DNA of 52,597 bases from Acidithiobacillus sp. (GTDB lineage: Bacteria; Pseudomonadota; Gammaproteobacteria; Acidithiobacillales; Acidithiobacillaceae). Below are positions 2,109 to 23,292 of the stretch, one piece after another; position 1 is the first letter of the stretch, and every line of letters starts with the position of its first letter. Made by a program: the position numbers and the translations under genes. Where the stretch lies: contig NZ_DAHVHY010000007.1 of the NCBI RefSeq assembly GCF_027322205.1, positions 1 to 52,597 of the forward strand. Reading direction: 5' to 3'. The notes beneath the pieces are model-generated. The model did not search any database. It was not told the DNA's origin and saw nothing but the letters and a program-made list of their open reading frames with translations.

Positions 2109-3026
2109 CTATCGCTGTCCACTTTCACCATGAGCCGATGCAGCGAACAGGTACTCCATAAAGGCCTTGACGATTGGAGAAAGCTGCTTTCCAGCCGGAT
2201 AGACTGCATACCACTTGCGCTCCAGCGGAAAACCACGCACGTCGAGTATCGCCAGTTTTCCGCTGGCGAGTTCCGCACGTATCGTACTGGCAGAGATCAC
2301 GGCAATGCCTAAACCGCCGGCCACGGACTGTTTGACGGCCTCATTACTACCAAACTCCATACGCGTTTTGAGAGCGACGCCATGTTGCTCGAAAAACTTT
2401 TCTGCGGCCAGGCGCGTTCCCGAACCGGGCTCGCGCAAAATAAATGGCACGTCCCGCAGACGGGATGGCTCGATATCCTTTTCCTGCATCAGGGGATGGT
2501 CCGATCGGGCCACCACCACCAAGGGATTGTCAGCAAAAGTTTCCGCAATAACATTCATGTGTTCCGGCGGCTGACCCAGGATGTAAAGATCGTCCTGATT
2601 ATGCACGAGCCGCTCCAGCAAGGCTTCCCGATTACCAATAAACAGGGCGGTATCGACACCAGGATGCTCCGTGCAGAACCCCCCCAACAGACGTGGGATA
2701 AAATATTTCGCCGTGGAGAGCGTGGCCACCTTCAAACTGCCCTTCTCCAGCCCCTGGAGGGCGGCCAACTCCTGGGTGAAATATTCCAGTCGGTCCAGAA
2801 CATCCTGGCAAGCCGACGTCAGCGCTTCCCCGGCCGCTGTCAGATAGATTTTCTTACCAATCTGATCGAAGAGAGGCTGACCCAAGGCCTCGGCGAGTTG
2901 CCTGACCTGAATAGACAGAGCGGGTGGCGTCAAATGCAATTCTTCAGCGGCACGGGCGAAGCTCATATGCCGAGCTACGGCGGCGAAGATCCTGAGTTGG
3001 TGCAAGGTTGCGTGACGAATGGACAT
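2109..3026 (-). CDS. cbbR: LysR-type transcriptional activator of the RuBisCO/carboxysome operon
   Basis: A 305-residue LysR-family regulator. Residues about 7-65 form the winged helix-turn-helix (LHQLRIFAAVARHMSFARAA followed by LTPPALSIQVRQL). The rest is the periplasmic-binding-protein-like effector domain, with the GSGTR..AE..F motif typical of CbbR. CbbR proteins activate cbb genes in response to metabolites of the Calvin cycle or redox state. The gene is divergent from cbbL with 144 bp between the two starts, the classical arrangement. The start was chosen because the HTH begins a few residues in and the length is usual for the family (about 300). The identity as CbbR rests on both sequence and context. 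Confidence 0.93.
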   Translation of the reverse strand: MSIRHATLHQLRIFAAVARHMSFARAAEELHLTPPALSIQVRQLAEALGQPLFDQIGKKIYLTAAGEALTSACQDVLDRLEYFTQELAALQGLEKGSLKVATLSTAKYFIPRLLGGFCTEHPGVDTALFIGNREALLERLVHNQDDLYILGQPPEHMNVIAETFADNPLVVVARSDHPLMQEKDIEPSRLRDVPFILREPGSGTRLAAEKFFEQHGVALKTRMEFGSNEAVKQSVAGGLGIAVISASTIRAELASGKLAILDVRGFPLERKWYAVYPAGKQLSPIVKAFMEYLFAASAHGESGQR

Positions 3027-3170
3027 ACCAATAGTAAACCATAGTAAATTATAATAGTAAATATATTTAACTTTTATGAATTAACAGATCGTCCACAATG
3101 CCACTCAAGCATTGGAACCTAACCAGTGGTTCCAATCATCGTTGCCTACCATGACACAAGGAGAGCAAGC
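3027..3170. promoter_or_regulatory. cbbR-cbbL divergent control region
   Basis: The region is strongly AT-rich against a GC-rich background. It contains TAA-N7-TAA at 3058-3070 and several further TNA triplets, matching the TNA-N7/8-TNA pattern reported for CbbR operators. Promoters for both genes should lie here. I could not place -10/-35 boxes with confidence. The cbbL ribosome binding site AAGGAG is at 3158-3163. Confidence 0.65.
3112..3135 (+). promoter_or_regulatory. Perfect inverted repeat in the cbbL leader
   Basis: TTGGAACC (3112-3119) and GGTTCCAA (3128-3135) form an 8-bp stem with an 8-nt loop about 22 nt ahead of the cbbL ribosome binding site. It could be a 5' UTR stabilising hairpin or a protein-binding dyad; no U-tract follows, so it is not a terminator. 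Confidence 0.5.
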
Positions 3171-4592
3171 ATGGCCGTAAAAAAGTATGAGGCCGGTGTA
3201 AAGGACTACCGGCAGACCTATTGGGCCCCCGAGTACGTGCCTTTGGATTCCGATATCCTAGCTTGTTTCAAGATTACGCCGCAACCAGGCGTGGATCGAG
3301 AAGAAGCCGCCGCCGCAGTAGCCGCCGAGTCTTCTACCGGCACCTGGACCACGGTGTGGACCGATTTGCTGACTGACATGGATTACTATAAGGGCCGCGC
3401 CTATCGCATTGAAGATGTGCCAGGCGATGACACCTGCTTTTACGCTTTTGTTGCCTATCCCATAGATTTGTTTGAAGAGGGGTCTGTGGTTAACGTCTTC
3501 ACCTCTTTGGTGGGTAACGTGTTCGGCTTCAAGGCCGTGCGTGCGCTGCGCCTGGAGGATGTGCGATTTCCGCTCGCCTACGTCAAGACTTGCAACGGAC
3601 CGCCCCACGGCATCCAGGTCGAGCGCGACAAAATGAACAAATATGGCCGACCGATGCTCGGCTGTACCATCAAGCCCAAGCTCGGCCTGTCCGCCAAGAA
3701 TTATGGTCGTGCGGTCTACGAGTGTCTGCGCGGTGGTCTGGATTTCACCAAGGACGATGAGAACGTCAACTCGCAGCCCTTCATGCGCTGGCGCGATCGG
3801 TTTCTGTTCGTGGCCGACGCGATCCACACAGCCGAAGCTGAAACTGGCGAGCGCAAAGGACATTATTTAAATGTTACAGCGCCGTCGCCCGAGGAAATGT
3901 ATGAGCGTGCCGAGTTCGCCAAGGAACTCAATATGCCCATCATCATGCACGACTTCCTCACCGGCGGTTTCTGTGCCAATACCGGCCTGGCGCGTTGGTG
4001 CCGGAAGAACGGCATCTTGCTGCACATTCATCGTGCCATGCATGCGGTGGTGGACCGTAATCCGCATCACGGCATCCACTTCCGTGTGTTGGCCAAGGCG
4101 CTCCGTTTGTCGGGTGGTGATCACCTGCATACCGGCACAGTGGTTGGCAAGCTGGAAGGTGACCGCGGCGCCACTCAGGGCTGGGTCGACCTGCTGCGCG
4201 AGTCATTCGTCCCCGAGGACCGCAGTCGCGGCATCTTCTTTGACCAGGACTGGGGTTCCATGCCAGGCGTGTTCGCCGTGGCTTCTGGTGGCATCCACGT
4301 CTGGCACATGCCAGCGCTGTTAGCGATCTTCGGCGACGATGCGGTATTCCAGTTTGGTGGCGGTACGCTGGGGCATCCATGGGGCAACGCTGCCGGAGCA
4401 GCTGCCAATCGCGTTGCGCTGGAGGCCTGTGTAGAAGCGCGCAATGAAGGGCGTGATCTGGAGCGCGAGGGCAAGGACGTCCTCACCAACGCCGCAAAAG
4501 ACAGCCCGGAGTTGAAGATTGCTCTGGAAACCTGGAAAGAGATCAAGTTCGAGTTCGACACCGTAGACAAGCTGGACGTAGTGAACCGCTGA
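3171..4592 (+). CDS. cbbL: RuBisCO large subunit, form IA
   Basis: Ribulose-1,5-bisphosphate carboxylase/oxygenase large chain, 473 residues, the normal size for carboxysomal form IA. The start at 3171 gives MAVKKYEAG and sits 7 nt after AAGGAG; an upstream in-frame start at 3126 has no support. Active-site landmarks are present: TIKPKLG with catalytic Lys at about 168, [17 protein letters not shown] with the carbamylated Lys at about 194, HIHRAMH, the flexible loop GKLEGDR, and SGGIH. It is the first gene of the carboxysome operon and is packaged in the shell through CsoS2. No key residue is missing. Confidence 0.99.
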
Positions 4593-4629
4593 TTCCGGGA
4601 CCGTAATCGCAAAGGCACAAACGAAAACC

Positions 4630-4664
4630 CGCGCGGCGTGTGGCTTGACGGCTCGCTCCGCGCG
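4630..4664 (+). promoter_or_regulatory. GC-rich hairpin between cbbL and cbbS
   Basis: CGCGCGG (4630-4636) pairs with CCGCGCG (4658-4664) in the 91-bp gap between cbbL and cbbS. There is no U-tract, so it is more likely an mRNA-stability or processing element than a terminator. Confidence 0.4.
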
Positions 4665-4683
4665 CCAAAGAAAGGGATAGAAA

Positions 4684-5016
4684 ATGGCTGACATTCAAGA
4701 CTACAACTCCACACCCAAGTACGAAACCTTCTCCTATTTGCCGGCAATGGGACCGGAAAAGATGCGCCGTCAGATCGCCTATCTCGTAAGTCAGGGCTGG
4801 AATCCCGGCATCGAGCATGTGGAGCCTGAACGCGCCTCGAAATACTACTGGTACATGTGGAAGCTGCCCATGTTCGGCGAGCAGTCGGTGGACACCGTTA
4901 TTGCCGAACTGGAGGCGTGCCATCGCGCCCATCCCGACCACCATGTGCGTCTGATCGGGTATGACAACTACTCGCAGAGCCAGGGCAGCTCCTTTGTGGT
5001 GTTTCGCGGGCGATAA
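4684..5016 (+). CDS. cbbS: RuBisCO small subunit, form IA
   Basis: A 110-residue small chain, typical of carboxysomal form IA. The start follows GAAAGGGA. The family signature KYETFSYLP is at residues 13-21, followed by [24 protein letters not shown] and the C-terminal [14 protein letters not shown]. It assembles as L8S8 with CbbL. In alpha-carboxysomes the L/S interface is the binding site for the N-terminal repeats of CsoS2, encoded next. The TAA stop is 69 bp before csoS2. Confidence 0.98.
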
Positions 5017-5085
5017 GCAAGATGGGTGCGGGCTATCCGGCAGTTAGCCTGCGCAGGGGTTTGATGGATACGGAAGGATCAAGGC

Positions 5086-7386
5086 ATGAGCGACTCTATG
5101 GCAAACAATATGGCATCTCCGCGCTCGACACGTGCCGCTGCGTTGGAGCGGCGGCGGGCGCTGTCACACAACGGTGCCGCCGCGCTGGGGGCAAAACCGT
5201 CCGCACCAGTGCGGACAGCGAGCAATATGGCCGCCATGGAGGCGACAGGGGCTACCGGCAAGTCGCTTTCCCGTGCGCGCCGTGAGGCATTGTCGCAGGG
5301 TGGCGCCATAGGGCTTGCGCAGGCCAACTCTACGGCGCATACGGGGATTCGTGTAATTGCCTCGGATATACCGACTGTCACCGTCGCGCCTGTAGAAGCG
5401 GCGGCGGCGGCTGCCGCGCAAAGCTTAACCGCCCCGAATGGTTGTGGCTGCAAAAAAGGTAAGGACGCAACGGAAATCGCCGAGCGGGAGCAGTTGCTTG
5501 AGGCGGCATGCGCGCTGGTAGACGAAGACCCGGCATCAGTGGCCGGGCCGAGCGCCTCTGCGGTGCGCAAGCTCTGCCAGGAGCGCCGCCGCGCGCTTTC
5601 CAGTCAAGGAAAGATGGCGGCGGAGCCGTCTCGGACTCATGTTTCGCGTACATCGCACAATAATAGGCCGTCCTGCGCCGTAGCAGGATTGAGTGGGCGC
5701 GACGCGGCCCAGGCGCGCCGTGAGGTGCTGTGTCAGCAAGGGCGCGGCGACCACCCCGCGTGTCGGCCCAGCGGCCGGACCCGTCAGAAGCCTGCAGCAC
5801 CTGCCAAAGTGGAGCAAGGGACTACCCTGAGTGGCACATCCGTGACCGGCACCCAGGTGGAGCGTAGCGCCAGGGTCACAGGCGCCGAACCGGGCAGTTG
5901 CCGGGCCATCACCGGCACTGAATATATCGGCACCGAGCAATACGGCGCATTGTGCACCGCCATCCCAGAGCCGGCTCCGGCTAAGGTTGGCGTAGGCCGG
6001 ACCACCAGAGGCCAGCGTGTGAGTGGCGTCGAGCTTGGACACAGCGTGAAGGTCACCGGAGATGAACATGGCACCTGTAAGGCCGTGACCGGCACCGAAT
6101 ATCTCAGCGCCGACAAATTTGAATCCTTTTGCGCAACCCGGCCAGTGCTGACGCCGGCCAAGGTCAGCGTAGCCGCCACCGAGGCTGGTCAGCGCGTGAG
6201 TGGAACCGAAGTCGGGCGCAGCGCCAGAGTGACCGGGGATGAGCCCGGATCCTGCCGCAAGCTTACCGGCAGCCAATATTACCAGCCGGAGTCGTTCGGC
6301 AGCCTGTGTCGCGACGGCGGCAGCGCTCCACACAAGGTGAGCGTGATGAGTACGCTGCGCGAGCATGCTTTGACGGGTACGGAGACCGCCACGGGAAACC
6401 GCGTGACGGGTACGGAACGTGGAGTGTGCGCCAGTGTGACGGGCACAGAATCTGCCGGACTGGCGCAGTATCAGGCCTGCAACCGCAAGCCCGTTTCTGT
6501 ACCGGAAAAAGTCGGCGTGATGCGCACCTGGCACGAGCAGCCGGTATCCGGCACGTCGGTGGAACGCAGTTCCAAGGTGACCGGCGATGAATATGGCGGT
6601 TGCCAGCCGGTCACGGGCACGGAATATGCCGGTCCCGATCAGTACGCGGCATTTTGCACAGCGGACCATCAGGCCACGGCACGGGCTCTGATGGCGAGCC
6701 AAAGTGGCGTCGCCGATGCGATGATGACCGGTATCCGGCTGGGACCGGACAGCAAGGTGACCGGTTCCGCTCGTGGTGAAGGGCAGGTTTTGAGTGGCGC
6801 CCCTTATGCGAGTACTGATCAGCGGGCACTGCAGAAGAGTGGAGATGGGACGCGGATGCATCCACTCACCCGTGGCCCGGTCGATGCACCGCATACGGCA
6901 GTCGCTGCCCCGGAGGTGGCAGCAGTCCGCGGAAATTTTAGCGTCACGACCCCCGCGCGCAGCGCGCAGGAGAGACCGCTCAGCCGCGTTACCGGTACCG
7001 CCTATGGCGCGGTGGGACGCATTACCGGTCCGGTGAATCTGGCGGCTGGTCTGGTCTCCGGTACGCCCGAGTTCCGTTATCGGGAAGAGGCCCATGGTGC
7101 TGCACCGGTGGAAGCGCCGCGCAGCCGCCTCACCGGGGATGGACGTGAAGGGGGTTTTGCCATCACGGGGGCGGCATGGAGGCGCAATGAAAGCATTACC
7201 GGCACCGAAGGCACCTCTACGCGCCGCAACCCAACCTTGCGTGGAGATCAACGCGGTACGGTGCTTGGGGCTTCCCAGATGAAAGACCGCGAGCGGCCGG
7301 CGTTGCCCATCAGCCGAGTGACTGGCAGCAGCGGCAACGATGCCAAAGGCTCTTCTATTACCTATTCCGGCGGCGCACGAGGTTGA
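5086..7386 (+). CDS. csoS2: Carboxysome scaffold protein CsoS2
   Basis: A 766-residue repetitive, low-complexity protein that links RuBisCO to the shell. The N-terminal region carries four RuBisCO-binding repeats (LERRRALSHNG, RARREALSQGG, QERRRALSSQG, QARREVLCQQG), in this family short helices that bind CbbLS. The middle region has about six M-repeats with the VTGxExGxCxxVTGTEY pattern and paired cysteines. The C-terminal region has more divergent ITG/VSG repeats and ends in ITYSGGARG, the conserved shell-anchoring terminal peptide. The start at 5086 follows GGAAGGA. In Halothiobacillus the gene undergoes programmed frameshifting to give a short form; I did not identify a slippery site here. 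An uninterrupted 637-codon frame on the opposite strand is a composition artefact. Confidence 0.96.
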   Translation: MSDSMANNMASPRSTRAAALERRRALSHNGAAALGAKPSAPVRTASNMAAMEATGATGKSLSRARREALSQGGAIGLAQANSTAHTGIRVIASDIPTVTVAPVEAAAAAAAQSLTAPNGCGCKKGKDATEIAEREQLLEAACALVDEDPASVAGPSASAVRKLCQERRRALSSQGKMAAEPSRTHVSRTSHNNRPSCAVAGLSGRDAAQARREVLCQQGRGDHPACRPSGRTRQKPAAPAKVEQGTTLSGTSVTGTQVERSARVTGAEPGSCRAITGTEYIGTEQYGALCTAIPEPAPAKVGVGRTTRGQRVSGVELGHSVKVTGDEHGTCKAVTGTEYLSADKFESFCATRPVLTPAKVSVAATEAGQRVSGTEVGRSARVTGDEPGSCRKLTGSQYYQPESFGSLCRDGGSAPHKVSVMSTLREHALTGTETATGNRVTGTERGVCASVTGTESAGLAQYQACNRKPVSVPEKVGVMRTWHEQPVSGTSVERSSKVTGDEYGGCQPVTGTEYAGPDQYAAFCTADHQATARALMASQSGVADAMMTGIRLGPDSKVTGSARGEGQVLSGAPYASTDQRALQKSGDGTRMHPLTRGPVDAPHTAVAAPEVAAVRGNFSVTTPARSAQERPLSRVTGTAYGAVGRITGPVNLAAGLVSGTPEFRYREEAHGAAPVEAPRSRLTGDGREGGFAITGAAWRRNESITGTEGTSTRRNPTLRGDQRGTVLGASQMKDRERPALPISRVTGSSGNDAKGSSITYSGGARG

Positions 7387-7441
7387 TGTGATACCGACGG
7401 CGACTGTACGCCCACCCACGCAACACGGACCAGAGATTGCG

Positions 7442-9049
7442 ATGAACACGAGAAACCGTCCCGGGCGGCATCTGAGCCCTCAGCCAGGAGCAAACCGACC
7501 CCCTTATGGTCTGGGTACGCCAGCCAGTGCGTTACAAGCACGGCCGCCGTCGCGGGCATTCGCATCACACGAACTGCTGCACAGTCCGATGCGTGCAGCT
7601 AACCCGGCTTGCGCTATGGACCAGGGACGACCTTGTCGGCACCCGCTCAGCAATGAGTCGGAGAACCGCCGCCTGCTGGCCCACGAGCAGGCGATAAAGG
7701 GGCACTTCGCGGCCATCATTCCGGCGTTGAAGCGGCTTGCCGCCCAGCAGCATGAGGCCGATTTTCCTGAGCGCGCACAGCGCGTTGCCGACGCGGATCT
7801 GGGCTTCACGTTGCCCGCCAGCATTCTGGAGGATGCCTGGATAGCCAAGCTGGATATGCGCGCGCTGTATGGAGCGTGCGTCATGCACACCATTCGCCTC
7901 ATGGCAGAGCAAACGCAGGTCGCGCCGCCGCTGCAGAACTCGGACGAGATGAGCTCCTTCTTGCTCGACTGTGGCTACCACGCGGTGGATATCACGCCGT
8001 GCTCGGACGGGCGTCTGAAGGGGCTGATACGCTACATACTGCGTCTGCCCGATGACGCGGTGCGCAGCCGCAAGGCTTACGCCGGTGCCATGTTCGACGT
8101 GGAAGCCAACGTCAAACGCTGGATCGAGACCGAACTGATGCGCTATCGCGAAGGCCGTCCGGTGCCTGCCGACGCGGGTACGCGGTACTTGAAAATAGTG
8201 GTGTACCACTGGAGTAGTTCCGATCCCACCCACGAGGGTTGTGCGGCGCATCACAGCAACGAAAGGGATGCAGCAGAAGCCGGCCTGGGGCGATTGCGTG
8301 AATTCCGTCAGGCCATCGAAAACAGCTTCTGCTGCGGGGCCTCGGTAGACACCTTGCTGATTGGGGTCGATACGGATACCGATGGCATCAAGGTGCATGT
8401 GCCCGATGCCGATGGCGAAATGAGTTTGTATCGTTGGGTCAGCAACCTGACCTTATATAAGGAAACACTCAACGATGACGCCAGCACTGCACGCCTCAAG
8501 GTGTATCAGGCGATTCAAGCCGCTAGTGCTACGGACGGCTGGGGCATGGGCAACGGCGAACCACACGAGGGTATGCGTCGGCTCATCGCCACGCTACTGA
8601 TCAACAACCTGTCGCAGATTGAGTATGTATGCGGCAACTGGGAGGGACGCTACCCGGACATTGGTCACAACGAACGCTTCATCAGCGTGGGGGATGGATT
8701 CGAAGAATTTCAGGTACGGAACCTGGCGTATTTCGTTTACTTGCACACGGTGGAGGAAGGGGGGCCGGATCTCGATGTGGGCATTCAGATTTTTAGCCGG
8801 ATCAATGTGCTACACGGATTACCCGTGCCGGTGGCGATTCATTTCCGCTATGACCGGCGCGTGCCCGGCAGTCGCGAACGCACGGTAGAACACTGCCAGA
8901 GGGTCAGGGCCGCGATCGAGGCGCGCTATGCAGAGTTGCATCGGCAGGGTTTGCTGGTATGCGGCATGACCGTGCAGGACAAGCCCTCGGGCAGCCCGAT
9001 CGAAGCGCTCGAGGCGGATGGCGCCTCGGTATTGCGGAACGCGCGATGA
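7442..9049 (+). CDS. csoSCA: Carboxysomal carbonic anhydrase CsoSCA
   Basis: The shell-associated beta-type (formerly epsilon) carbonic anhydrase that makes CO2 from bicarbonate inside the carboxysome. From the ATG at 7442 it has 535 residues, slightly longer than the Halothiobacillus protein (about 514). Zinc ligands and catalytic dyad are recognisable: C187, D189 and R191 in TPCSDGR, then H256 and C267 in YHWSSSDPTHEGCAAH. The H-to-C spacing of 11 equals that of the Halothiobacillus enzyme. The N-terminal tail (about 60-80 residues) is basic and disordered-looking, as in homologues where it binds RuBisCO. The frame is open upstream to 7340 inside csoS2; I prefer 7442, which does not overlap, although its ribosome binding site is weak. 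Also called csoS3. Confidence 0.93.
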   Translation: MNTRNRPGRHLSPQPGANRPPYGLGTPASALQARPPSRAFASHELLHSPMRAANPACAMDQGRPCRHPLSNESENRRLLAHEQAIKGHFAAIIPALKRLAAQQHEADFPERAQRVADADLGFTLPASILEDAWIAKLDMRALYGACVMHTIRLMAEQTQVAPPLQNSDEMSSFLLDCGYHAVDITPCSDGRLKGLIRYILRLPDDAVRSRKAYAGAMFDVEANVKRWIETELMRYREGRPVPADAGTRYLKIVVYHWSSSDPTHEGCAAHHSNERDAAEAGLGRLREFRQAIENSFCCGASVDTLLIGVDTDTDGIKVHVPDADGEMSLYRWVSNLTLYKETLNDDASTARLKVYQAIQAASATDGWGMGNGEPHEGMRRLIATLLINNLSQIEYVCGNWEGRYPDIGHNERFISVGDGFEEFQVRNLAYFVYLHTVEEGGPDLDVGIQIFSRINVLHGLPVPVAIHFRYDRRVPGSRERTVEHCQRVRAAIEARYAELHRQGLLVCGMTVQDKPSGSPIEALEADGASVLRNAR

Positions 9050-9294
9050 AGATTTGTCAGGTGGAAAAAACCCTGGTTTCGACCAACCGGATCAAGGAAA
9101 TGGGGCACCGCCCACTGCTGGTGGTCAAGGAAAAAGGCGGTGCAAGAAGCATCGCCGTGGATGCGGTGGGGTGTGTCGCTGGCGACTGGGTGATTTGCGT
9201 GGGTTCGTCCGCAGCGCGCGAAGCGGCGGGCAGTAAAGACTTTCCGAGCGATCTTACCATCGTCGGCATCATCGACCATTGGTCGGAAGATTAA
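9046..9294 (+). CDS. csoS4A: Carboxysome vertex protein CsoS4A
   Basis: An 82-residue BMV (bacterial microcompartment vertex) protein that forms pentamers capping the shell corners. The start ATG overlaps the csoSCA stop in an ATGA (4 bp), implying translational coupling. Family features: MKICQVEKTLVSTNRI at the start, the RPLLVV strand, GDWVICVGSSAAREA, and the terminal TIVGIIDHW. The length is usual for the family. Confidence 0.96.
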   Translation: MKICQVEKTLVSTNRIKEMGHRPLLVVKEKGGARSIAVDAVGCVAGDWVICVGSSAAREAAGSKDFPSDLTIVGIIDHWSED

Positions 9295-9304
9295 GGGGGC
9301 CGAT

Positions 9305-9571
9305 ATGGACATCATGCGCGTCGTCTCTGATCTCGTGGCCACCCGACGTATACCGGGCCTGCAGAATGCATCGCTTCGGGTGCTCACCGATGCGAAGGGC
9401 CGGCTCAGCGTGGCCGCTGACCCGGTCGGTGCGCCACCAGGCAAATGGGTGATTGCCGTGAGCGGTTCGGCCGCCCGTTACGCTGCGGGGGATTATCGGA
9501 TACTGACTGACCTGACCATCGCCGGGATCATCGATCACTGGGATCCCAGCGGTAGCCAGACAGGGAACTAA
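9305..9571 (+). CDS. csoS4B: Carboxysome vertex protein CsoS4B
   Basis: The second vertex pentamer protein, 88 residues, paralogous to CsoS4A. It starts [15 protein letters not shown] and keeps [18 protein letters not shown] and [12 protein letters not shown]. It lies 10 bp after csoS4A; a ribosome binding site-like GGGGGC precedes it. Two different pentamer genes per operon are standard for alpha-carboxysomes. Confidence 0.96.
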
Positions 9572-9602
9572 CCATTTTTTTAACCGAAAAGGAGTAGTTG
9601 AA

Positions 9603-9899
9603 GTGGCAAACGTCAGCGGAGTGGCACTGGGTATGATCGAGACGCGCGGCCTGGTGCCGGCGATTGAGGCGGCGGACGCGATGACCAAGGCGGCGGAAGT
9701 GCGCCTGGTGGGTCGCCAGTTCGTAGGCGGTGGTTATGTCACCGTGCTGGTGCGCGGTGAGACCGGCGCGGTGAATGCGGCGGTGCGGGCCGGGGCGGAT
9801 GCGTGTGAGCGTGTCGGCGACGGTCTGGTGGCCGCCCACATCATCGCCCGCGTACACAGTGAAGTGGAGAATATTCTGCCCAGCAGCCCGGTGGAATGA
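9603..9899 (+). CDS. csoS1A: Carboxysome hexameric shell protein CsoS1 (A/C type)
   Basis: A 98-residue BMC-domain protein, the main facet hexamer. It starts with GTG at 9603, about 7 nt after AAAAGGAG. Landmarks: [21 protein letters not shown], the KAAEVRLVG strand, [16 protein letters not shown] and [15 protein letters not shown]. The numbering A or C cannot be fixed from sequence alone. It is almost identical at DNA level to the next gene. Confidence 0.95.
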
Positions 9900-10200
9900 A
9901 CAGTATTACTTGAGTCAACCGAACCGGAACTATGGAGCGATGAACATGACAAACGTCAGCGGAGTGGCACTGGGTATGATCGAGACACGCGGCCTGGTGC
10001 CGGCGATTGAGGCGGCGGACGCGATGACCAAGGCGGCGGAAGTGCGCCTGGTGGGTCGCCAGTTCGTAGGCGGTGGTTATGTCACCGTGCTGGTGCGCGG
10101 TGAGACCGGCGCGGTAAATGCGGCAGTGCGGGCCGGGGCGGATGCGTGTGAGCGTGTCGGCGACGGTCTGGTGGCCGCCCATATCATCGCCCGCGTGCAC
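9607..10200 (+). repeat. Near-identical tandem csoS1 copies (9607-9857 and 9950-10200)
   Basis: The two 251-bp segments line up without gaps at an offset of 343 bp and differ at five positions by my count, all silent. Identity drops sharply after 9857/10200, where the C-termini diverge. This fits recent duplication or ongoing gene conversion. Confidence 0.9.
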
Positions 10201-10284
10201 TCAGAGGTAGAAAACATACTACCGAAGACGCCCGATGCCAGTGACAGCGGGCTGGATGGCGTGGTCAGCCAGTCACTCAGCTAG
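9940..10284 (+). CDS. csoS1B: Carboxysome hexameric shell protein with C-terminal extension (CsoS1B-like)
   Basis: A second BMC-domain shell protein, 114 residues from the ATG at 9940 (112 from the ATG at 9946). The first 86 or so residues of the BMC core match the preceding protein; a C-terminal extension [20 protein letters not shown] then follows. CsoS1B of Halothiobacillus also differs from CsoS1A/C by a short C-terminal tail, so I assign it there. GGAGCGATG-type ribosome binding sequence precedes the start. Confidence 0.9.
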
Positions 10285-10297
10285 CGCCGGCGTGGCC

Positions 10298-10741
10298 ATG
10301 GCGAACGATCCGCGAATGACGGGCTACCTGATGCGCGCGCTCAGTGCCGAGATGGCCGCCGTGCAACAGTATCTCACCCAGGCCAGCCTGACCGCGATGT
10401 GGCAGTTGAAGGAATACAGTAGCCGTTTCCGCCGTGATGCGGAAGAAGAGCTCGGACATGCACAGCAGTTGATTGAGCGCATGTTGATATTGGGTATTGC
10501 TTCCAATGGCACGCAACTGCCGCCCATTCGTCCGGGTCGATCCCTGGAGGAGATGCTACTGATCGATCGCGGGCTGGAGATCGACGTGATCCGCCTGTAC
10601 GAAGAAGCGGCCAACTACTGCGCCCGGGTGCGTGCAGCAGAGACGCAAACTTTATTCGCCGACCTGCTGCAAGAGGAACTGGGTCACTTGCGTGATCTGG
10701 ATGGCATGTTGACCGGGATGCATCAAGGAGAGACGTCATGA
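10298..10741 (+). CDS. Carboxysome-operon ferritin-like (bacterioferritin-type) protein
   Basis: A 147-residue four-helix-bundle protein. Di-iron ligands are visible in the bacterioferritin pattern: E18 (AEMAAVQQY), E50/E51 with H54 (EEELGH), E94 (LEIDVIRLYEEA) and E126/E127 with H130 (EELGH). Genes of this kind are common in alpha-carboxysome operons; the role (iron or redox handling, or an assembly part) is not settled. I chose the ATG at 10298, 13 nt after the csoS1B stop, although the frame is open into that gene. It overlaps the following gene by ATGA. Confidence 0.88.
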   Translation: MANDPRMTGYLMRALSAEMAAVQQYLTQASLTAMWQLKEYSSRFRRDAEEELGHAQQLIERMLILGIASNGTQLPPIRPGRSLEEMLLIDRGLEIDVIRLYEEAANYCARVRAAETQTLFADLLQEELGHLRDLDGMLTGMHQGETS

Positions 10742-11016
10742 ATGCTGGAACTCATCCAAGTGCGGCAGCATCAGGGCCACAGGAACGTTTGTCCACGTTG
10801 AACTGGCGATTTGAGTTTGGAAGCTACGCTGCGACGCGGCATTTTCTGGATCAAATGGCCGATCTGTCCAAACGCGAGGATTACTATCCAAATGTGAGCT
10901 TCGGAAAAACCTACGTCAACATCAGTATCGATGCCGAAGGTCAGGCTGCGCTGGCCGAGCGCAACTCCAGCTTCATGGGCGAGATGGAAGCGCTGGCCAC
11001 GGCGGACAGGGCCTAA
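10738..11016 (+). CDS. acRAF: Alpha-carboxysome RuBisCO assembly factor (pterin carbinolamine dehydratase-like)
   Basis: A 92-residue protein of the PCD-like fold: LNWRFEFGSYAATRHFLDQM, then YYPNVSFGKTYVNISIDAEG. The canonical PCD active-site motif (E-HHP) is replaced by EDYYPN, as in the carboxysomal branch known as acRAF, which acts as a chaperone for form IA RuBisCO rather than as an enzyme. The start overlaps the ferritin-like stop by 4 bp (ATGA). Assignment to acRAF is from context and the lost active-site histidines. Confidence 0.88.
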   Translation: MNAGTHPSAAASGPQERLSTLNWRFEFGSYAATRHFLDQMADLSKREDYYPNVSFGKTYVNISIDAEGQAALAERNSSFMGEMEALATADRA

Positions 11017-11052
11017 AGCGGCGGACCGCCAGCAGCGGCAGCAGGGGCAAAC

Positions 11053-11688
11053 ATGGCGGACAGGGTCATCGCGGTAATCAACCAAAAGGGCGGTACCGGC
11101 AAAACCACGTTGGCATTGAATCTTGCGGCGGGTCTGGCACAACGCGCTGCCACCCACCTGGTGGATGCCGATCCTCAGGGTTCGATCAGTCAGTGGGTCG
11201 CCATGGCCGCGACCCACACGGGCCTGCCGCCAGTGGCACAGCCTGGCGATGATCCCTTCGCCACCATTGCGCAACTGGCATGTACCCACCGCTACGTGGT
11301 GGTGGACTGCCCGCCAGCTATTCAGGGTGACCTGGTCGCTGCGGTGATGCGCTCGGTTCAGGTGATATTGATTCCGGTGTTGCCCTCCCCGATTGATCTG
11401 TGGGCCAGTGTGGGGATGGCGGCAGCGCTGGGCGAGGCCCGGCGCTTGAATCCAGGCCTGCGTGCAGGCTTGGTGTTGAATCAACTGGAAACGCGTAATG
11501 CCCTGTCCCGCGCCATGCGCGAGGCCCTGGCGGAGTTCGATATACCGATATTGCAGGCCGGCATGCAGCGGCGTGCGGCTTATCGTAGCGCCGCGGTCGA
11601 GGGGACAAGCGTCTACGGACTGGGCAAACGCGCCCAAGCAGCCGTGGCGGATATGGAAGCGATCATTGAGGAGGTCTTATGCCTGTGA
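11053..11688 (+). CDS. mcdA: ParA-type ATPase positioning carboxysomes (McdA)
   Basis: A 211-residue ParA/MinD-family ATPase with the deviant Walker A KGGTGKTT at residues 12-19, Walker A' VDADPQGS and Walker [11 protein letters not shown]. In alpha-carboxysome operons this gene with the small downstream partner forms the McdAB system that distributes carboxysomes over the nucleoid. The start follows GCAGGGGC. It overlaps the next gene by 10 bp. Confidence 0.9.
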
Positions 11689-11933
11689 AGAAGTTGGGAT
11701 CCAAACTGGCGCAAGGGGTACGCCAGGTTCAAGCGCAGCAAGTCGATACCCCGTCGCCGACGACAGAGGCGTGCGTGTCTGTGGCGCCGGATGACCAAGC
11801 GAAAGGCAGCAGTACGGCCCATCCGGACGAGAAGCCGCCGCTATCACCGCGCGCATCGGGGGACGAACGGTCCTCCACACGGCGCTCAGAGGGGCACAAG
11901 CACCTGCACCCGCGGCGGGTGTGGCCCGATTAA
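11679..11933 (+). CDS. mcdB: Carboxysome positioning adaptor (alpha-type McdB)
   Basis: An 84-residue, proline-, serine- and charge-rich, probably disordered protein. It starts with ATG at 11679 inside the end of mcdA after TTGAGGAGG, a strong ribosome binding site. The C-terminus HPRRVWPD contains the single near-terminal tryptophan that is conserved in alpha-McdB proteins. It would bind the carboxysome shell and stimulate McdA. The sequence is otherwise poorly conserved, so the call depends on position, size, composition and the WPD end. Confidence 0.8.
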
Positions 11934-11963
11934 ATGCCTTATTTTTGGCTTCAGGAGTGAAGA

Positions 11964-12767
11964 ATGTCACCCGAAATTGATCCATATCTCGTTCAAGATA
12001 TGCCTTACTACCGTGCGGTAGCCGACGAAGTGGAACTATACGAAGCCGCCTATTCGGTACGCATGCCCATGATGCTGAAAGGACCTACCGGTTGCGGGAA
12101 AACACGCTTTGTTGAATACATGGCGTGGAAGCTGGGCAAGCCGCTGATTACCGTGGCGTGTAACGAGGATATGACGGCATCCGATCTGGTCGGCCGTTTT
12201 CTGCTCGACGCTTCCGGCACCCGCTGGCAGGACGGCCCACTGGCCATTGCCGCGCGATTTGGGGCCATCTGCTATCTCGACGAAGTGGTAGAAGCTCGTC
12301 AGGACACGACTGTAGTGATCCACCCACTTACCGACGCGCGACGTGTGCTGCCGCTGGAAAAGAAGGGCGAACTGGTACAGGCCCATCCCGATTTCCAAAT
12401 GGTAATTTCCTACAACCCGGGCTACCAGAGCTTAATGAAAGACTTGAAGCAGTCGACGAAGCAGCGTTTCGGTGCACTGGATTTCAGCTATCCCGCCCAC
12501 GCTATTGAAGCCGAGATCGTTGCCCACGAAACCAGTGTCGGTGTTGAAATCGCCGGCAAACTGGTGTCCATCGCCGAACGTGCGCGCAATCTCAAGGGGC
12601 ATGGCCTCGACGAGGGGATCTCCACACGTATGCTGATTTACGCGGGCAGCCTTATTACCCGGGGTGTGGAGCCATTGGCGGCATGCCGTATGACGCTGGT
12701 TCGACCGATCACCGATGACCCTGATATGCGTGATGCACTCGACGCTGCGGTGAGTACATTCTTCTGA
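11964..12767 (+). CDS. cbbQ: RuBisCO activase AAA+ subunit CbbQ
   Basis: A 267-residue MoxR/NorQ-type AAA+ ATPase. Walker A GPTGCGKT is at residues 40-47, Walker B CYLDEV at about 103-108, sensor-1 VISYNPGYQ at about 136-144. A CbbQ hexamer with one CbbO forms the activase that removes inhibitory sugar phosphates from RuBisCO. The start follows AGGAGTGAAG. It is 15 bp ahead of cbbO. Confidence 0.95.
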
Positions 12768-12782
12768 TATCCGGAGCCAAAG

Positions 12783-15134
12783 ATGGCGGTCGAACTCGAA
12801 AAATACCAGGACATATTGGCCGAACTCGGGGAGCACGCTAGCGAAGTACTGCGTGCCTCTTGGGACGAGGCAGCGCGGGTGTTCACCCCGCGTGGACTGG
12901 AGAATGACTATTTGAATGGCGCGACCAGCCTGAAGTCCCTGGGACGCGGCACCGATCTGGTGGTGTCGTTCATTCAGAGCGCACCGGCGGTGGCGCGCGA
13001 ACTGGGCGAAGATGCCGTCCACGAAATGCTGGCCGCCGCTATCAAGATGTATTCCAAGACCAGCGCTACCGTCATTGCCGCGATGTTTTCCACCAGCCCC
13101 GTGGCGGCTGCGCGACTGGGTGATCCGGAGTTGTTCCGTGGCTATTTGCGCTTGCTCGATACCCTGCTCGCGCAAGCGCCGCGCGGGGTGCGTCCGATGC
13201 TGGATCACCTCAGCACACTCCTGGGCCAACTCACCCTGGGCGGGTTGCGGCGCTGGGCGCTGTGGGGTGCGCAGGCGCACAAGACCGATTTTGATGGCCA
13301 GGCAAAATATTTCGCGTTGGAAAGCCCAGAATCTATGGGCGTTTTGCAAAAGGAACGCAAAGGCACGCTGTTCATCGACGTGCAGCGCCGCATCGGCATG
13401 TATTTGCGCGCCTTGTGGGCGCGCGATTTCTTCTTGCGCCCCACCAGCGGCGACTTCGAGCAGCGCGAAGGCTACCGACCCTCCATCGAGGGATACATTA
13501 TCCATCTCCCCGATGCGTATGATGATCTGGTGTGGCAGGTACCGTCGGGTGAGGAAATGCGCATTTCCGGCATTGAACTATACCGTGCCAGTGCCGCTCA
13601 CGCAGCCTGCCATCAGGTATACACCACAGATCAATTCGACAGCACCGGGCTGAGTGCATTGCAGAGAGTGCTCATTGGTCTGATCGAGGATGCCCGCGTG
13701 GAAGCCATCGCCCTCAAGCAGTTTCCTGGCCTCAGGCAAATCTGGTTGCCGCTACACACGGCAACACCCGCATCCGGCAACGATGCCGCGTCCTTAATGG
13801 CGCGCTTGGCACGTGCTCTGCTGGACCCGGAATATTCCGATGATCATCCTTGGGTGGCGATGGGTCGCCAGATGTTCGACGGGCAGCAGGATCGTCTGGG
13901 TTCCACCGAATGGGCGCGTGAGGTCGGTTTGCATCTTGCTGCGGAAATGCAGCAACTTGGCATGGTCTATTCAGGCAGCGTGGGCCTGCCGGATATCCCC
14001 TATCGCGACGACAACCAATATATTTGGGAGTTCGAGGATGTCCGCGAAGTCGGGCAGGTGATCGCCGGCGTCACTACGCAGCAAATCCGCAAGTACGTCA
14101 GCGTGATGGAAATGGTCAATGCCATCGACGTGCCCGGCGCCGGCGATGATGCCAACGAAATATGGGTACTCTCCAGCGAATTCTTCCGCGATGAGGAAGC
14201 CACCAGTCTCAATCAGCAAGAAGGCCGCGAGCCACCGCCGGAGCCCTATCATTACCCGGAGTGGGATTACCAGATGCAACTGGAGCGACCAGACTGGTGC
14301 ACCGTGCTGGAAAAGCGGGCCAAAAGTGGCGCTTTGGAGATCATTGATGAAATTGTGGCCAAGCACAAGCCTGTCATCGGTCGACTCAAATATCTGATCG
14401 AAGCGTTGCAACCGCAAGGTGTGCAGCGCCTGCGCAAGCAAGAGGATGGCGATGAAATAGACCTGAACGCCGCGGTGCGTGCCATGATTGAGATGCGTAT
14501 GGGCGAGCAGCCCGATTTGCGCATCATGATGCGCAACGTGCGTAAGGTGCGTGATCTCTCAGTACTGCTGCTGATCGATCTGTCCGAATCCACCAATGAT
14601 CCGGTGCAGGGTTCGGAAAGCACCGTACTACAACTGGCACGTGAGGCTACGGTGCTGCTCGCCGATGCCCTCAACAAAATAGGCGACCCCTTCGCCATTC
14701 ACGGATTCGATTCAAACGGCCGTCACGATGTGGAATATTTTCGCTACAAAGATTTCGGCGCAGCCTACAACGACCATGCCAAATCTCGCCTGGCGGGGAT
14801 GAGCGGCCAACTATCCACACGCATGGGTGCGGCGATCCGTCATGCCGGCTCGATTTTGAAACGTCAGCCCAGCAACAAAAAACTCTTGCTGGTGATCACC
14901 GACGGTGAGCCGGCGGATAACGATGTGCGCGATCCCCAATACCTGCGATATGACGCCAAGAAAGCCGTCGAAGAACTGACCCAAATCGGCATCTCTCCCT
15001 ACTGCCTGAGCCTCGATCCCCGGGCTGACCAGTACGTATCCCGCATTTTTGGCGCGAACAACTATGTGGTTCTGGATCATGTGCAGAGATTGCCCGAAAA
15101 ATTGCCGATCCTCTACATGGGTCTCACCCGATGA
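12783..15134 (+). CDS. cbbO: RuBisCO activase adaptor CbbO (von Willebrand A domain)
   Basis: A 783-residue NorD-like protein. The long N-terminal part is alpha-helical and unique to the family. The C-terminal von Willebrand A domain has the MIDAS motif D599-L-S-E-S603, followed by the TDGEPADNDVRDPQYLRYD segment. The MIDAS site is used to bind RuBisCO, and CbbO tethers it to the CbbQ ring. The gene ends 125 bp before the aldolase-like gene. A degraded copy of the C-terminal region lies at 16623-17342. Confidence 0.95.
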   Translation: MAVELEKYQDILAELGEHASEVLRASWDEAARVFTPRGLENDYLNGATSLKSLGRGTDLVVSFIQSAPAVARELGEDAVHEMLAAAIKMYSKTSATVIAAMFSTSPVAAARLGDPELFRGYLRLLDTLLAQAPRGVRPMLDHLSTLLGQLTLGGLRRWALWGAQAHKTDFDGQAKYFALESPESMGVLQKERKGTLFIDVQRRIGMYLRALWARDFFLRPTSGDFEQREGYRPSIEGYIIHLPDAYDDLVWQVPSGEEMRISGIELYRASAAHAACHQVYTTDQFDSTGLSALQRVLIGLIEDARVEAIALKQFPGLRQIWLPLHTATPASGNDAASLMARLARALLDPEYSDDHPWVAMGRQMFDGQQDRLGSTEWAREVGLHLAAEMQQLGMVYSGSVGLPDIPYRDDNQYIWEFEDVREVGQVIAGVTTQQIRKYVSVMEMVNAIDVPGAGDDANEIWVLSSEFFRDEEATSLNQQEGREPPPEPYHYPEWDYQMQLERPDWCTVLEKRAKSGALEIIDEIVAKHKPVIGRLKYLIEALQPQGVQRLRKQEDGDEIDLNAAVRAMIEMRMGEQPDLRIMMRNVRKVRDLSVLLLIDLSESTNDPVQGSESTVLQLAREATVLLADALNKIGDPFAIHGFDSNGRHDVEYFRYKDFGAAYNDHAKSRLAGMSGQLSTRMGAAIRHAGSILKRQPSNKKLLLVITDGEPADNDVRDPQYLRYDAKKAVEELTQIGISPYCLSLDPRADQYVSRIFGANNYVVLDHVQRLPEKLPILYMGLTR

Positions 15135-15259: not shown

Positions 15260-16441
15260 ATGCCTTTGGTGCACATGAAAGATCTGCTGAACCATGCCTA
15301 TGCGCACGGATACGCGGTAGGTGCTTTCGACGTCGTGAGTCTGGAGTTCGTCGAGGGCGTCATGGCCGCTGCCGAGCGGTCTCGCGCCCCCGTAATCCTC
15401 TCTCTGTCCGAATCGCACCTGGAGCACTACGATTTCGAGCTGCTGATGTCAGGGGTAGAGGCAGCGGCACGCCGTAGCGCGGTGCCGGTAGCCCTCCATT
15501 TTGACCGTGGAGCGAACCTGGAAGCGGCGGTGCGGGCTATCCGCCTGGGTTGCAACGGCGTGATGGTGGACGCCTCACAGTCGACTTTCTCCGATAACCT
15601 GACGCATACGAAGACCGCGGTCGAGATGGCCCATGCCTGCGGTGTGCCGGTCGAAGGGGATTTGGGTTATGTCCCCGACGCAGAGGACATAGACGCCCAA
15701 CGGCGTCCTGCCACGTTACCCTACACCACTGTGGCCGAGGCGAAAGGCTTTGTCGAGCGCACGGGGGTAGACTTCCTCGTGGTGTCCATTCGGGCGGAAC
15801 AAATCTGTCCAAATGGTAAAACCAAGCTGGATATTCAGCGCCTGCGCAGCATCAACCAGGCACTGGGTATTCCGCTGGCAATCCACTGCAGAACCCGGCT
15901 CGACGATGACCAATTTCGGCGACTCATTGCCCATGGCGTGGCCAAGATCAACTACTTTACCGCGCTGGCTGAAGCCGCGAACGCAGCGGTCAGCGCCCGG
16001 GCAAAATCGGCGCCGGGCGCTGGCTACCTGGACTTGGTTCAAGATGTTGGTGCAGCGATCAGCGCCGAGGCTGAGCGCTGTATGCGCGTGTGGGGTGCTG
16101 CTGGGAGGGCCGCAGAGGTATTGGCATGCTGTCGACCGTGGGCATTCGTGGAACACCTGATCATCCACAATGTTATGGGCATTTCTGAAAAGGAAGTGAC
16201 CGCGATGATGATCGAGGGGCAGCAGACGCTGAGCACCATTCCGGGAGTGCGGTCAGTGATTACGGGTAAGGCGATGAGAGAACGCGCTCAATACCGTTAC
16301 TGCTGGCGGGTGCGCTTTGCGGCACCGGAAGTAATCGATTCCTATCATGAGCACCCTGACTATGTGGCCTTCACCAACCGGCGTTTCCGGCCCGTGGCCG
16401 ACCGGGAAATCAGCATCGACTACGCCATGGAATGCCTATGA
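15260..16441 (+). CDS. Degenerate class II fructose-bisphosphate aldolase fused to a Dabb (stress-responsive alpha/beta barrel) domain
   Basis: A 393-residue protein. Residues 1 to about 290 align by motif with class II aldolases: VALHFDRGANLEAAVRAIRLG (80-100 region), EGDLG (132-136), FLVVSIRAEQ (172-181), LAIHCRTRL (206-214) and KINYFTAL (229-236). However, the canonical HxDH is H80-F-D82-R83, ELG is D134-L-G, the GTxH(G) position is Q181, and the phosphate-binding HGGSG is H209-C-R-T-R. Three of the four zinc ligands are therefore changed. Residues about 297-391 form a Dabb domain ([22 protein letters not shown]). The gene is last in the carboxysome operon, 125 bp after cbbO. Normal aldolase activity seems unlikely. 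Dabb is unrelated to the transporter subunit DabB. Confidence 0.85.
   Translation: MPLVHMKDLLNHAYAHGYAVGAFDVVSLEFVEGVMAAAERSRAPVILSLSESHLEHYDFELLMSGVEAAARRSAVPVALHFDRGANLEAAVRAIRLGCNGVMVDASQSTFSDNLTHTKTAVEMAHACGVPVEGDLGYVPDAEDIDAQRRPATLPYTTVAEAKGFVERTGVDFLVVSIRAEQICPNGKTKLDIQRLRSINQALGIPLAIHCRTRLDDDQFRRLIAHGVAKINYFTALAEAANAAVSARAKSAPGAGYLDLVQDVGAAISAEAERCMRVWGAAGRAAEVLACCRPWAFVEHLIIHNVMGISEKEVTAMMIEGQQTLSTIPGVRSVITGKAMRERAQYRYCWRVRFAAPEVIDSYHEHPDYVAFTNRRFRPVADREISIDYAMECL
16284..16441 (+). repeat. 158-bp direct repeat, left copy (3' end of the aldolase/Dabb gene)
   Basis: This segment, coding for the last 52 residues of the fusion protein and its stop, recurs at 23317-23474 with the same length and about six substitutions by my count. 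The two copies bracket the whole first DAB module. Confidence 0.92.
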
Positions 16442-16610
16442 AAACCATTAGCGACGTTGTTATCTCAGATACTGCAGGCCTCACCGGGCTCTTTGTTATT
16501 GGCACTGACACGGGCGTCGGCAAGACCTGAGTGGCGGCGGCACTGACCCGTCTCCAGGTGCAGCGGGGTTTATTGGTGCGTCCGCGCAAACCAGTGGAAT
16601 CCGGGTGTCC
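16438..16610 (+). pseudogene. bioD: Dethiobiotin synthetase fragment
   Basis: The ATG at 16438 overlaps the aldolase stop (ATGA). The frame reads GLFVIGTDTGVGKT, the P-loop of BioD, then an in-frame TGA where Trp or Val is expected, and resumes VAAALTRLQVQRGLLVRPRKPVESG, matching the following BioD segment. It stops matching near 16610, so only about 57 of some 225 codons remain. It is a relic: interrupted, truncated and followed by an unrelated fragment. Confidence 0.8.
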
Positions 16611-16622
16611 ATAATGTTTTGA

Positions 16623-17342
16623 TCAAATACGGCTGAAAAACTTGCGGAAAAAAGTGAAAAATCATCGTGGACGTATTCTGTGCAAAAAGATCAATCAGCA
16701 GGCCTTTATCGTTCTGATCCGCGCATTAGTATTCGTACCCAACGGAACATCCACGATCTTTCAGTCATGCTGTTGATGGATCTTTCAGAATCCACCAATG
16801 ATCTCCTGAGAACGCGCAGTGAAGGCGATGTGGGCGTGTTACAACTTGCTCGGGAAGCTACGGCGTTACTTGCTGAGGCGCTTGGGCGTATCGGTGATCC
16901 ATATATGCTTTGCGGCTTCGATTACAACGGACGCCACGATGTAGAATTCTGTAAGTTCAAAGATTTCGGCACGTCCTACGATGATAAGGTGAAAGGACGT
17001 CTTGCCGACATGACGGGACAGCTTTCCACGCGCATGGGTGCCACTTTACGTCATGCGGGACATTTGCTAGATCAGCATCCAAGCCAGAAAACACTCATTC
17101 TTTTCTGACAGATGGTGAACCCGCCGATAATGATGTGCGCGATCCCCAATATTTGCGTTTCGATACAAAAAACGGTGGAATATATTAATCGTAAGGGTAT
17201 CCGCACGTTCTTTTTGTTATTAGATCTTTATGCCGACAAATATGTATTTATGATTTTCTGTCAACGTAATTATTTGATTCTGGATCATGTCGATAAAATG
17301 CCAGGAAAATTACCACAACTCTATATTTCCATGACCAAATAG
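16623..17342 (+). pseudogene. Degraded C-terminal fragment of a second cbbO/norD-like gene
   Basis: The fragment carries the von Willebrand A domain with MIDAS MDLSESTND, then NGRHDVEF, TGQLSTRMGATLRHAGHLLDQ, and LILF before a stop at 17106. A frameshift there, and a second near 17165, are needed to continue as TDGEPA and DVRDPQYLRF, then NYLILDHVDKMPGKLPQLYI. The order is the same as in the intact cbbO at 12783-15134, but at DNA level it is well diverged, so it is not a recent copy. It probably came in with the DAB module from another cbbQO cluster. No upstream cbbQ is left. Confidence 0.8.
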
Positions 17343-19058: not shown

Positions 19059-19059
19059 T

Positions 19060-19824
19060 ATGGATATCTTGATCTGGATCATGGCTGGGACATTGCTTCC
19101 GTGGTTTCCGTTAAGCTGGATTTTTAACAAGCTGCTTGCCAGCGCTCCGGGATTCTGGGCTCAGGCTCTGGCTATTCTGGTGTTTCCACAGTTGGGTTTG
19201 CTGCTTTTGATACATTCTGGAGCATGGCAGGCATTACCGGTTGGGCTGGATCCCAACTTGCGCGTCATAGCGCTTTTTACGGCAGTGTTCTACGCCTTTC
19301 GTGCGGCTAGTACCCGTGAAGTGCAGGTCTGGGCACGGCTGATGACGACGTCTGGGCTCGCACTAACCTGGTTGCTACATGGGCAGAACCTAGATCCCCT
19401 TATTCTACAGTCAGTTGCGCTGTCTTGGTCGATCCCCGGCGCGCTGATGCTGGTCTGGGCAGGACTTCTCAAGCAACGGATGGGGGGGGCCTACCTGGGG
19501 CTGACGGGTGGACTGGCGACGGTCTTGCCCCGTCTTTCCGCGCTGGTCACGCTCACCGCCCTCGCAGCTTCGGCGACGCCGATTTTTCCCAATTTTTTCA
19601 TCCTATTCTACGTGGTAAAGGCTCTGCCGTTGCTATGGATCCCAGGGGGCCTTCTGGTTTTGTTGCTTTGGGGCTGGGCCGTAGGACGGTTTTTGCAGGA
19701 TTTACTCTTCGGTATCTACCGGGGTGAGTTACTTGAGGATCTGACAGTGGGCGGCACCTGGTTGGGCGGCCTCGTGCTGGGACTATTTGCGGTTGGAGGC
19801 ATTTTTTGGGGGGCGCATGGATAA
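19060..19824 (+). CDS. Unnamed polytopic membrane protein between dabB and dabA
   Basis: A 254-residue, very hydrophobic protein with about seven predicted membrane segments (for example AQALAILVFPQLGLLLLIH and GGLLVLLLWGWAVGRFL). I do not recognise a named family. It is tightly packed: 1 bp after dabB1 and overlapping dabA1 by 8 bp, so it is co-translated with them. Some DAB operons of chemoautotrophs are reported to carry an extra gene of unknown function between the two subunits, and this fits that place. The second DAB locus in this window lacks it. A role as accessory membrane subunit is inference. Confidence 0.75.
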   Translation: MDILIWIMAGTLLPWFPLSWIFNKLLASAPGFWAQALAILVFPQLGLLLLIHSGAWQALPVGLDPNLRVIALFTAVFYAFRAASTREVQVWARLMTTSGLALTWLLHGQNLDPLILQSVALSWSIPGALMLVWAGLLKQRMGGAYLGLTGGLATVLPRLSALVTLTALAASATPIFPNFFILFYVVKALPLLWIPGGLLVLLLWGWAVGRFLQDLLFGIYRGELLEDLTVGGTWLGGLVLGLFAVGGIFWGAHG

Positions 19825-22969: not shown

Positions 22970-23292
22970 AAACCCTGAATCTGAGTCCACTGAAGAAGTT
23001 GGAGATCATCATGGAAGGTGTCCACAAAGACTTCGCTACGGATCTCCTAGATCGTTCTGGTGTAAAGGGATACACCATTGTCGGAAATCTTTCCGGAAAG
23101 GGCAGTCACGGTATTCATAATGGGCATGTCATGTTTAACGAAGATGATGTGTTGATCATGATCATTGTGGCTGTTCCAGAGGAGTTGGTGCCTCCCATCC
23201 TGGAAGGTTTCGCCCCTTTTTTTGAGAAGCACACTGGAGTGGTTTTCGTGACCGATATTCAGGTCAGCCGTCTGGTGAAGTTCAAGAACTAA
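22966..23292 (+). CDS. cpII: Carboxysome-associated PII-like signalling protein
   Basis: A 108-residue PII-fold protein: LKKLEIIMEG strand, GVKGYTIVGNLSGKGSHG in the T-loop/GYT region, then EDDVLIMIIVAVPEELV and a C-terminal VTDIQVSRLV. The loop differs from classical GlnB/GlnK: there is no uridylylation Tyr motif. Such proteins (CPII) next to bicarbonate transporters in autotrophs bind ADP/AMP and bicarbonate in the studied case. The overlap with dabA1 (ATGA) suggests it directly regulates the DAB complex. The symbol is descriptive. Confidence 0.85.
   Translation: MKTLNLSPLKKLEIIMEGVHKDFATDLLDRSGVKGYTIVGNLSGKGSHGIHNGHVMFNEDDVLIMIIVAVPEELVPPILEGFAPFFEKHTGVVFVTDIQVSRLVKFKN

Follow-up and report, generated by a model that had tools for sequence, protein, structure and literature searches.

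How the carboxysome and the inorganic-carbon uptake genes of chemoautotrophs sense the state of the Calvin cycle is, to our knowledge, poorly understood. The window, a 52,597-nucleotide stretch of an Acidithiobacillus contig, contains a carboxysome operon whose last gene, after cbbO, encodes an aldolase-like domain fused to a Dabb domain (Table 1), and the question is what such a protein does there. If it is a metal-less aldolase that is kept by selection and encoded together with Rubisco and the shell, it would offer a concrete candidate for a metabolite-binding part. We consider it likely that the protein is a pseudoenzyme derived from a zinc-dependent class II aldolase-Dabb fusion, with cleavage lost, the fold, Dabb domain and operon place kept, and a role in binding or output that we infer.

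Table 1. Coordinates in the window of the carboxysome operon, the aldolase-Dabb gene and its motifs
Feature	Coordinates	Strand
LysR regulator (CbbR-like), divergent from cbbL	2109..3026	-
Carboxysome operon: cbbL, cbbS, csoS2, csoSCA, two BMC-domain csoS1 copies, ferritin-like, ParA-like, cbbQ, cbbO	3126..15134	+
Zinc-less class II aldolase-Dabb fusion, 393 aa, counterpart of AFE_1676 'cbbA'	15260..16441	+
Aldolase (TIM-barrel) domain, residues 4-283	15269..16108	+
HFDR (80-83); zinc-ligand His replaced by Arg83; catalytic Asp82 retained	15497..15508	+
VEGDLG (131-136); zinc-ligand Glu replaced by Asp134	15650..15667	+
RAEQI (178-182) where GTxHG is expected; zinc-ligand His replaced by Gln181	15791..15805	+
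HCRTR (209-213) where HGGTG/HGSSG is expected; His209 retained	15884..15898	+
KINYFT (229-234); K229, N231 and T234 retained; Phe233 versus Asp in the canonical FBAs examined	15944..15961	+
Dabb domain, residues 309-388	16184..16423	+

Operon position and published counterpart

Gene order, domain content and a perfect primer match make the window protein the counterpart of Acidithiobacillus ferrooxidans CbbA (AFE_1676, ACK80290.1), which likewise sits after cbbO1 and carries the same two Pfam domains; the published cbbA primer has zero mismatches to the window and to three further loci (L003, L087 and L088). In the portions of the literature available to us, AFE_1676 is described as cbbA, an FBP aldolase and the final gene of the A. 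ferrooxidans cbb1 operon, with RT-PCR backing a single transcript that includes cbbA and a gene table that gives both of its Pfam domains (PMC2942843); as part of cbb1, whose gene RNA declines with rising CO2 (PMC6458275); and as one of three predicted FBP aldolases (PMC2621215). The majority of proteins of the operon AFE_1676-AFE_1691 are raised in iron-grown cells, AFE_1676 not being singled out in the available portion of that study (PMC6450195). Neither inactivity nor missing zinc ligands are mentioned in the available portions of PMC4207490, PMC2942843, PMC6458275, PMC7895386, PMC6450195, PMC2621215 and PMC12918739, and by term count the word aldolase is absent from the main text of the last of these, a 2026 review of the alpha-carboxysome. 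Searches of the open-licence literature returned nothing on a Dabb domain combined with an aldolase, nothing for H180Q or Arg259, and three matches on inactive or pseudo-aldolases, all unrelated. Our reading differs from the publication of CbbA as an FBP aldolase and bears on the annotation of AFE_1676 as given in the available part of PMC2621215; to the published picture it adds the loss of the zinc site and a widespread family that is mostly zinc-intact.

The window protein is not a core component of the alpha-carboxysome, in the sense of being present in all or most cso loci: CsoSCA was found in 29 of 57 relatives' genomes, and seven of these 29 had a full fusion, one more carrying a truncated copy.

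The zinc site and the fold

We take residues 83, 134, 181 and 209 to be the four zinc-holding positions of class II aldolases. The window protein has R83, D134, Q181 and H209 where His, Glu, His and His are expected, and its phosphate loop reads HCRTR instead of HGGSG, with both phosphate-loop glycines replaced. The alignment agrees with the original prediction both on these replacements and on His209 as the sole remaining ligand of the four. A misplaced alignment, with the zinc ligands lying elsewhere, was rejected: the four sites align without gaps both to PDB aldolases and to the canonical FBA of this genome. The protein lacks the zinc-ligand set and the glycine-rich loop of an active class II FBP aldolase (EC 4.1.2.13).

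What is left is recognizably an aldolase. By homology the protein belongs to PF01116, whose profile it matches over positions 1-277 of 277 at 224.6 bits (cut-off 25.5). Modelled by AlphaFold2 with 20 relatives (pLDDT 87.4), it is predicted to adopt the aldolase TIM-barrel fold; a structure search with the whole model found YdjI, SqiA and FBAs to be the closest PDB structures, the VIA-align structure comparison being well tested for residues 1-290 only. Structure prediction, one of the checks proposed for this gene, and the structure search both led to aldolases. When the window protein alone was run against the named aldolase models of NCBIfam, none of the 19 matches reached its cut-off, the highest scoring 218 of 406 bits. 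The complete Dabb domain noted earlier at the C-terminal side of the aldolase is borne out by a PF07876 match (37.2 bits; cut-off 25) and by predicted strands and helices at residues 297-389 in the order expected of such a domain. Compared with class II aldolases (PF01116; E. coli YdjI, SqiA and H. pylori FBA), then, the window protein shares the fold, the catalytic Asp and the Lys/Asn/Thr residues, but it has lost three of the four zinc ligands and the GGSG loop, carries an extra Dabb domain, and has Phe233 where 22 canonical FBAs have Asp.

The altered site is partly held in common within the genus. E180, Q181, C210 and R213 are common to all six zinc-less Acidithiobacillus rows, as is C183; the same rows differ at position 83 (R or H) and position 134 (D or S), the pattern expected from relaxed constraint. 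Homologues beside cbbO, proposed earlier as a check on whether the substitutions are conserved, gave a divided answer: E180, Q181, C210 and R213 recur in the six Acidithiobacillus proteins, but the fusions L006, L007 and L008, which lie downstream of cbbO with the same domain order and 62-78% identity over the full length, are zinc-intact, retaining HEHH and the glycine-rich loop. A model of L006 (pLDDT 88.9 overall) has its secondary structure in the same order as the window protein; pLDDT in loop 141-150 is 59 in L006 versus 36 in the window protein, and in loop 181-190 it is 74 versus 56.

The fusion family and repeated loss of the zinc site

We assembled the family by scanning genome contigs, which gave 80 loci (the best 80 of 145 relatives), and by searching 369 genomes drawn from the class, 48 of which, among the matches listed, had a match of at least 440 bits. 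Six duplicates or fragments were removed before the 86-row set was formed. In the 131-row set, identical proteins were collapsed, two canonical FBAs were removed and the window's protein was included; L205, whose match contains two stops, was left out, as were other pieces below 250 aa. The 131 rows include some with an incomplete Dabb domain (L150, L153 and L157) and the pieces, kept apart, of one split gene (L204).

Four zinc ligands are complete in 93 of these 131 unique fusion proteins and incomplete in 38, and D82, G178, G182, G210 and G213 are kept in every one of the 93. The canonical FBAs examined, this genome's own included, are all zinc-intact (22/22). Judged by match lengths, 44 of 50 genomes hold an additional class II FBA of canonical length, as do, within the same survey, 11 of the 14 genomes in which a zinc-less fusion was seen. 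Fusion genes lie near Rubisco genes in 62 of the 125 rows judged.

Even the zinc-intact fusions may be something other than FBP aldolases, since 91 of 93 carry Tyr or Phe at position 233, where the 22 canonical FBAs carry Asp (L006 has Asp). A further idea, that lack of the canonical Arg237 keeps the intact family from using FBP, was abandoned, as this Arg is missing from the Bacillus methanolicus aldolase 7ncc as well. HAD-type phosphatases, which we call CbbY-like (our own naming, with Pfam run on the L044 protein only), are encoded near zinc-intact fusions at L010 9185-9889, L044 2270-3031 and L031 5939-6796; these neighbours hint at Rubisco-related sugar phosphates as what the intact enzyme acts on. 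L018 (7573-7953) and 10 other loci encode a conserved protein of about 126 aa, whose gene in cbbLSQO loci frequently separates cbbO from that of the aldolase-Dabb fusion; a Pfam scan of one such protein gave no match.

Since the zinc-intact majority shares the Dabb domain, the fusion is older than the zinc loss, which is secondary and repeated; the earlier statement that this protein had gained a Dabb domain is not supported. We counted eight changes of zinc state on an 89-row tree, at least four of them forced by starred branches, and 10 on the best 134-row tree, built without nine active-site columns, the exact number being uncertain given long branches and quick support values. Such separate loss among relatives, taken with the preservation of the gene after its zinc site was lost, suggests a non-enzymatic function.

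The losses differ in kind. In a second zinc-less clade of 10 rows (HEQH), H181Q is the only ligand change, accompanied by H80Q and by replacement of E132 in all 10; other zinc-less lineages carry residues different from those of Acidithiobacillus. The HEQH clade is a natural counterpart of an engineered H. pylori FBA variant, H180Q, with the same single ligand change; we take H180 to be the ligand aligned with Q181 of the window protein, which likewise has Gln at this position but, unlike the engineered single change, has two further ligand changes. As far as the titles of structures 5ud1-5ud3 tell, H180Q was crystallised with FBP and with DHAP. By analogy, losing the aligned His at 181 need not abolish binding. 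Zinc loss did not, as a rule, leave the Dabb domain better preserved than the aldolase domain (Mann-Whitney p 0.20), although L191, L195 and L203 individually show that pattern. At L203, a cso/DAB locus, positions 5074-5916 on the minus strand encode another PF01116 protein, strongly diverged, which lies between cbbL and the zinc-less fusion.

Selection, linkage and possible roles

We compared dN/dS across zinc-less and zinc-intact copies. Five zinc-less Acidithiobacillus rows gave 0.105-0.164 over 10 pairs, the zinc-intact pair L006-L007 gave 0.185, and 14 zinc-intact pairs ranged over 0.043-0.196. Among other zinc-less pairs, seven of nine fell at 0.079-0.211 (the range of the four usable pairs of the HEQH clade), one near-identical pair gave 0.32 and one was saturated. 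For cbbO in the same Acidithiobacillus genomes the values were 0.085-0.117, below those of the fusion in nine of 10 pairs.

The changes are also unevenly placed. Of 90 family-conserved positions, the window protein has changed at 15, and 14 of these 15 lie among the 30 positions of active-site segments (p 1.9e-7), a count in which the ligand quartet itself is biased, as the conserved positions were defined on the intact set and the segments by us; with the quartet excluded, 11 of 12 changes still lie there (p 3.1e-6). The corresponding shares are 11/12, 15/17, 12/13, 17/21 and 17/21 in the other five zinc-less Acidithiobacillus rows, as against 1/3 and 1/2 in the zinc-intact sisters L006 and L007. 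Across the family, 21 of 38 zinc-less rows show this concentration at p < 0.05 (uncorrected); it was not seen in the remaining 17, the HEQH clade among them. Together, the best reading of these sequences is that the protein is maintained by selection as a pseudo-aldolase. The original prediction of a non-aldolase role finds support in the loss of the zinc site, purifying selection on a protein that keeps its fold and Dabb domain, the new common residues, the separate intact FBA and the repeated loss.

One alternative is a relic, a second aldolase beside Rubisco that is redundant given the canonical FBA and has been slowly decaying since its metal site was lost. Several observations lean this way: most carboxysome-bearing relatives lack the gene (7 full copies in 29), dN/dS exceeds that of cbbO in nine of 10 pairs, a canonical FBA is present alongside, the G006 copy (L153) is strongly diverged at 324 aa with a match that stops ahead of the Dabb domain, and the G230 copy has two stops. 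The first two also count against a pseudoenzyme under selection, as do the variation that persists at positions 83 and 134 and the 17 rows mentioned above that lack an active-site concentration. Yet the frame is open in all six zinc-less Acidithiobacillus rows, the changes cluster in active-site segments instead of being spread, new residues are held in common, and dN/dS lies inside the range of intact copies, so that a decaying relic is unlikely. We find improbable, too, a new enzyme with a rebuilt pocket, for example around His209 with Cys210 and Cys183, or metal-free, acting on a Rubisco by-product or a sugar phosphate. Purifying selection, the constancy of C183, E180, Q181, C210 and R213 in the six Acidithiobacillus rows, the retention of D82, K229, N231 and T234, the adjoining rubisco-activase genes and the HAD phosphatases near three intact relatives would all suit it; the variation between species at 83 and 134 and the different residues of other zinc-less lineages would not, and the site geometry cannot be claimed from a model whose pLDDT is below 50 at residues 180-185. 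That His209, Asp134, Gln181 and Asp82 keep enough residual metal binding for FBP to be cleaved normally, as the published annotation (in the portions available) and the retention of D82 and other substrate-site residues might suggest, is highly improbable: three zinc ligands out of four are replaced, as are the two glycines of the phosphate loop; the full ligand set is present in 93 relatives and in every one of the 22 canonical FBAs; and the genome has its own canonical FBA.

Returning to the pseudo-aldolase, we asked where zinc-less copies sit. If a row counts as linked when cso, DabA or Sbt genes lie no more than 8 kb away, zinc-less copies make up 19 of the 26 linked rows versus 16 of 95 unlinked (10 rows with too little flank excluded), and the p of 1.2e-7 is post hoc and uncorrected, because the class was widened from cso to cso, DabA or Sbt after zinc-less copies had been seen beside DabA and Sbt, and the window, L087 and L088 were set to linked by hand. 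When linkage is restricted to cso genes, the zinc-less share of linked rows is 12 of 15 (9/12 plus the window, L087 and L088). The linkage rows contain near copies (L087 and L088; L057 and L059), and an independent-pairs test on starred branches found six pairs, on average 2.0 with and 0.3 against, at a median p of 0.625. The idea that zinc loss is caused by carboxysome linkage was accordingly set aside: the raw counts favour it but the independent-pairs tests do not, most losses lying in one part of the tree. Zinc-intact copies occur in cso loci too (L006, L007 and L012), which counts against the pseudoenzyme reading. The link with Rubisco genes is less strong, zinc-less copies accounting for 25 of the 62 linked rows and 11 of the 63 others (p 0.006 uncorrected, six rows excluded), and is not significant in independent pairs. 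Among the neighbourhoods of zinc-less copies, that of L204 has csoS1 with sulfate-permease, Sbt and P-II genes, and those of L196, L198 and L207 have LysR with DabA.

A likely course of events is as follows. The ancestor would have been a zinc-dependent class II aldolase-Dabb fusion, often near Rubisco genes; in the carboxysome operon of the A. ferrooxidans group it would have lost zinc-dependent cleavage, retaining the fold, the Dabb domain and the place of last gene. The old pocket, with its new Arg and Cys residues, may still bind a negatively charged metabolite, either a sugar phosphate or a sugar bisphosphate, and the ligand state, or a purely structural contact, would be relayed via the Dabb domain to a partner in Rubisco or the CO2-concentrating system. 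Sensing of sugar phosphates is suggested because of the ancestry, the retained substrate-site residues and the operon context. More tentatively, and with considerable doubt, an aldolase of the Calvin-cycle neighbourhood might have given up catalysis several times over, in independent lineages, to serve the bacterial CO2-concentrating machinery of carboxysome, DAB and Sbt loci as an adaptor or as a sensor of sugar phosphates. Its ligand would sit in the former active site and its output would pass through the Dabb domain, the Acidithiobacillus pocket being rebuilt with conserved Cys and Arg.

The region downstream of the gene holds several further features. An inorganic-carbon uptake cassette at 17370-23292 encodes a DabB-like protein, a 254-aa protein without a Pfam match, DabA (1060 aa) and P-II. 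The final 158 bp of the aldolase-Dabb gene (16284-16441) are repeated at 96% beyond this cassette, at 23317-23474, so that the cassette is bracketed by a copy of the gene's 3' end; in G012, the 3' end of the aldolase-Dabb gene opens two contigs. Between the aldolase gene and DabB, at 16713-17339, lies a piece of the cbbO 3' end, which shares 52% identity with the resident CbbO and has one internal TGA, and comparable cbbO 3' fragments occur in L003 and L005. Finally, a bioD-like start (FVIGTDTGVGKT), read by eye at 16438-16530 and interrupted by a stop, overlaps the end of the aldolase gene.
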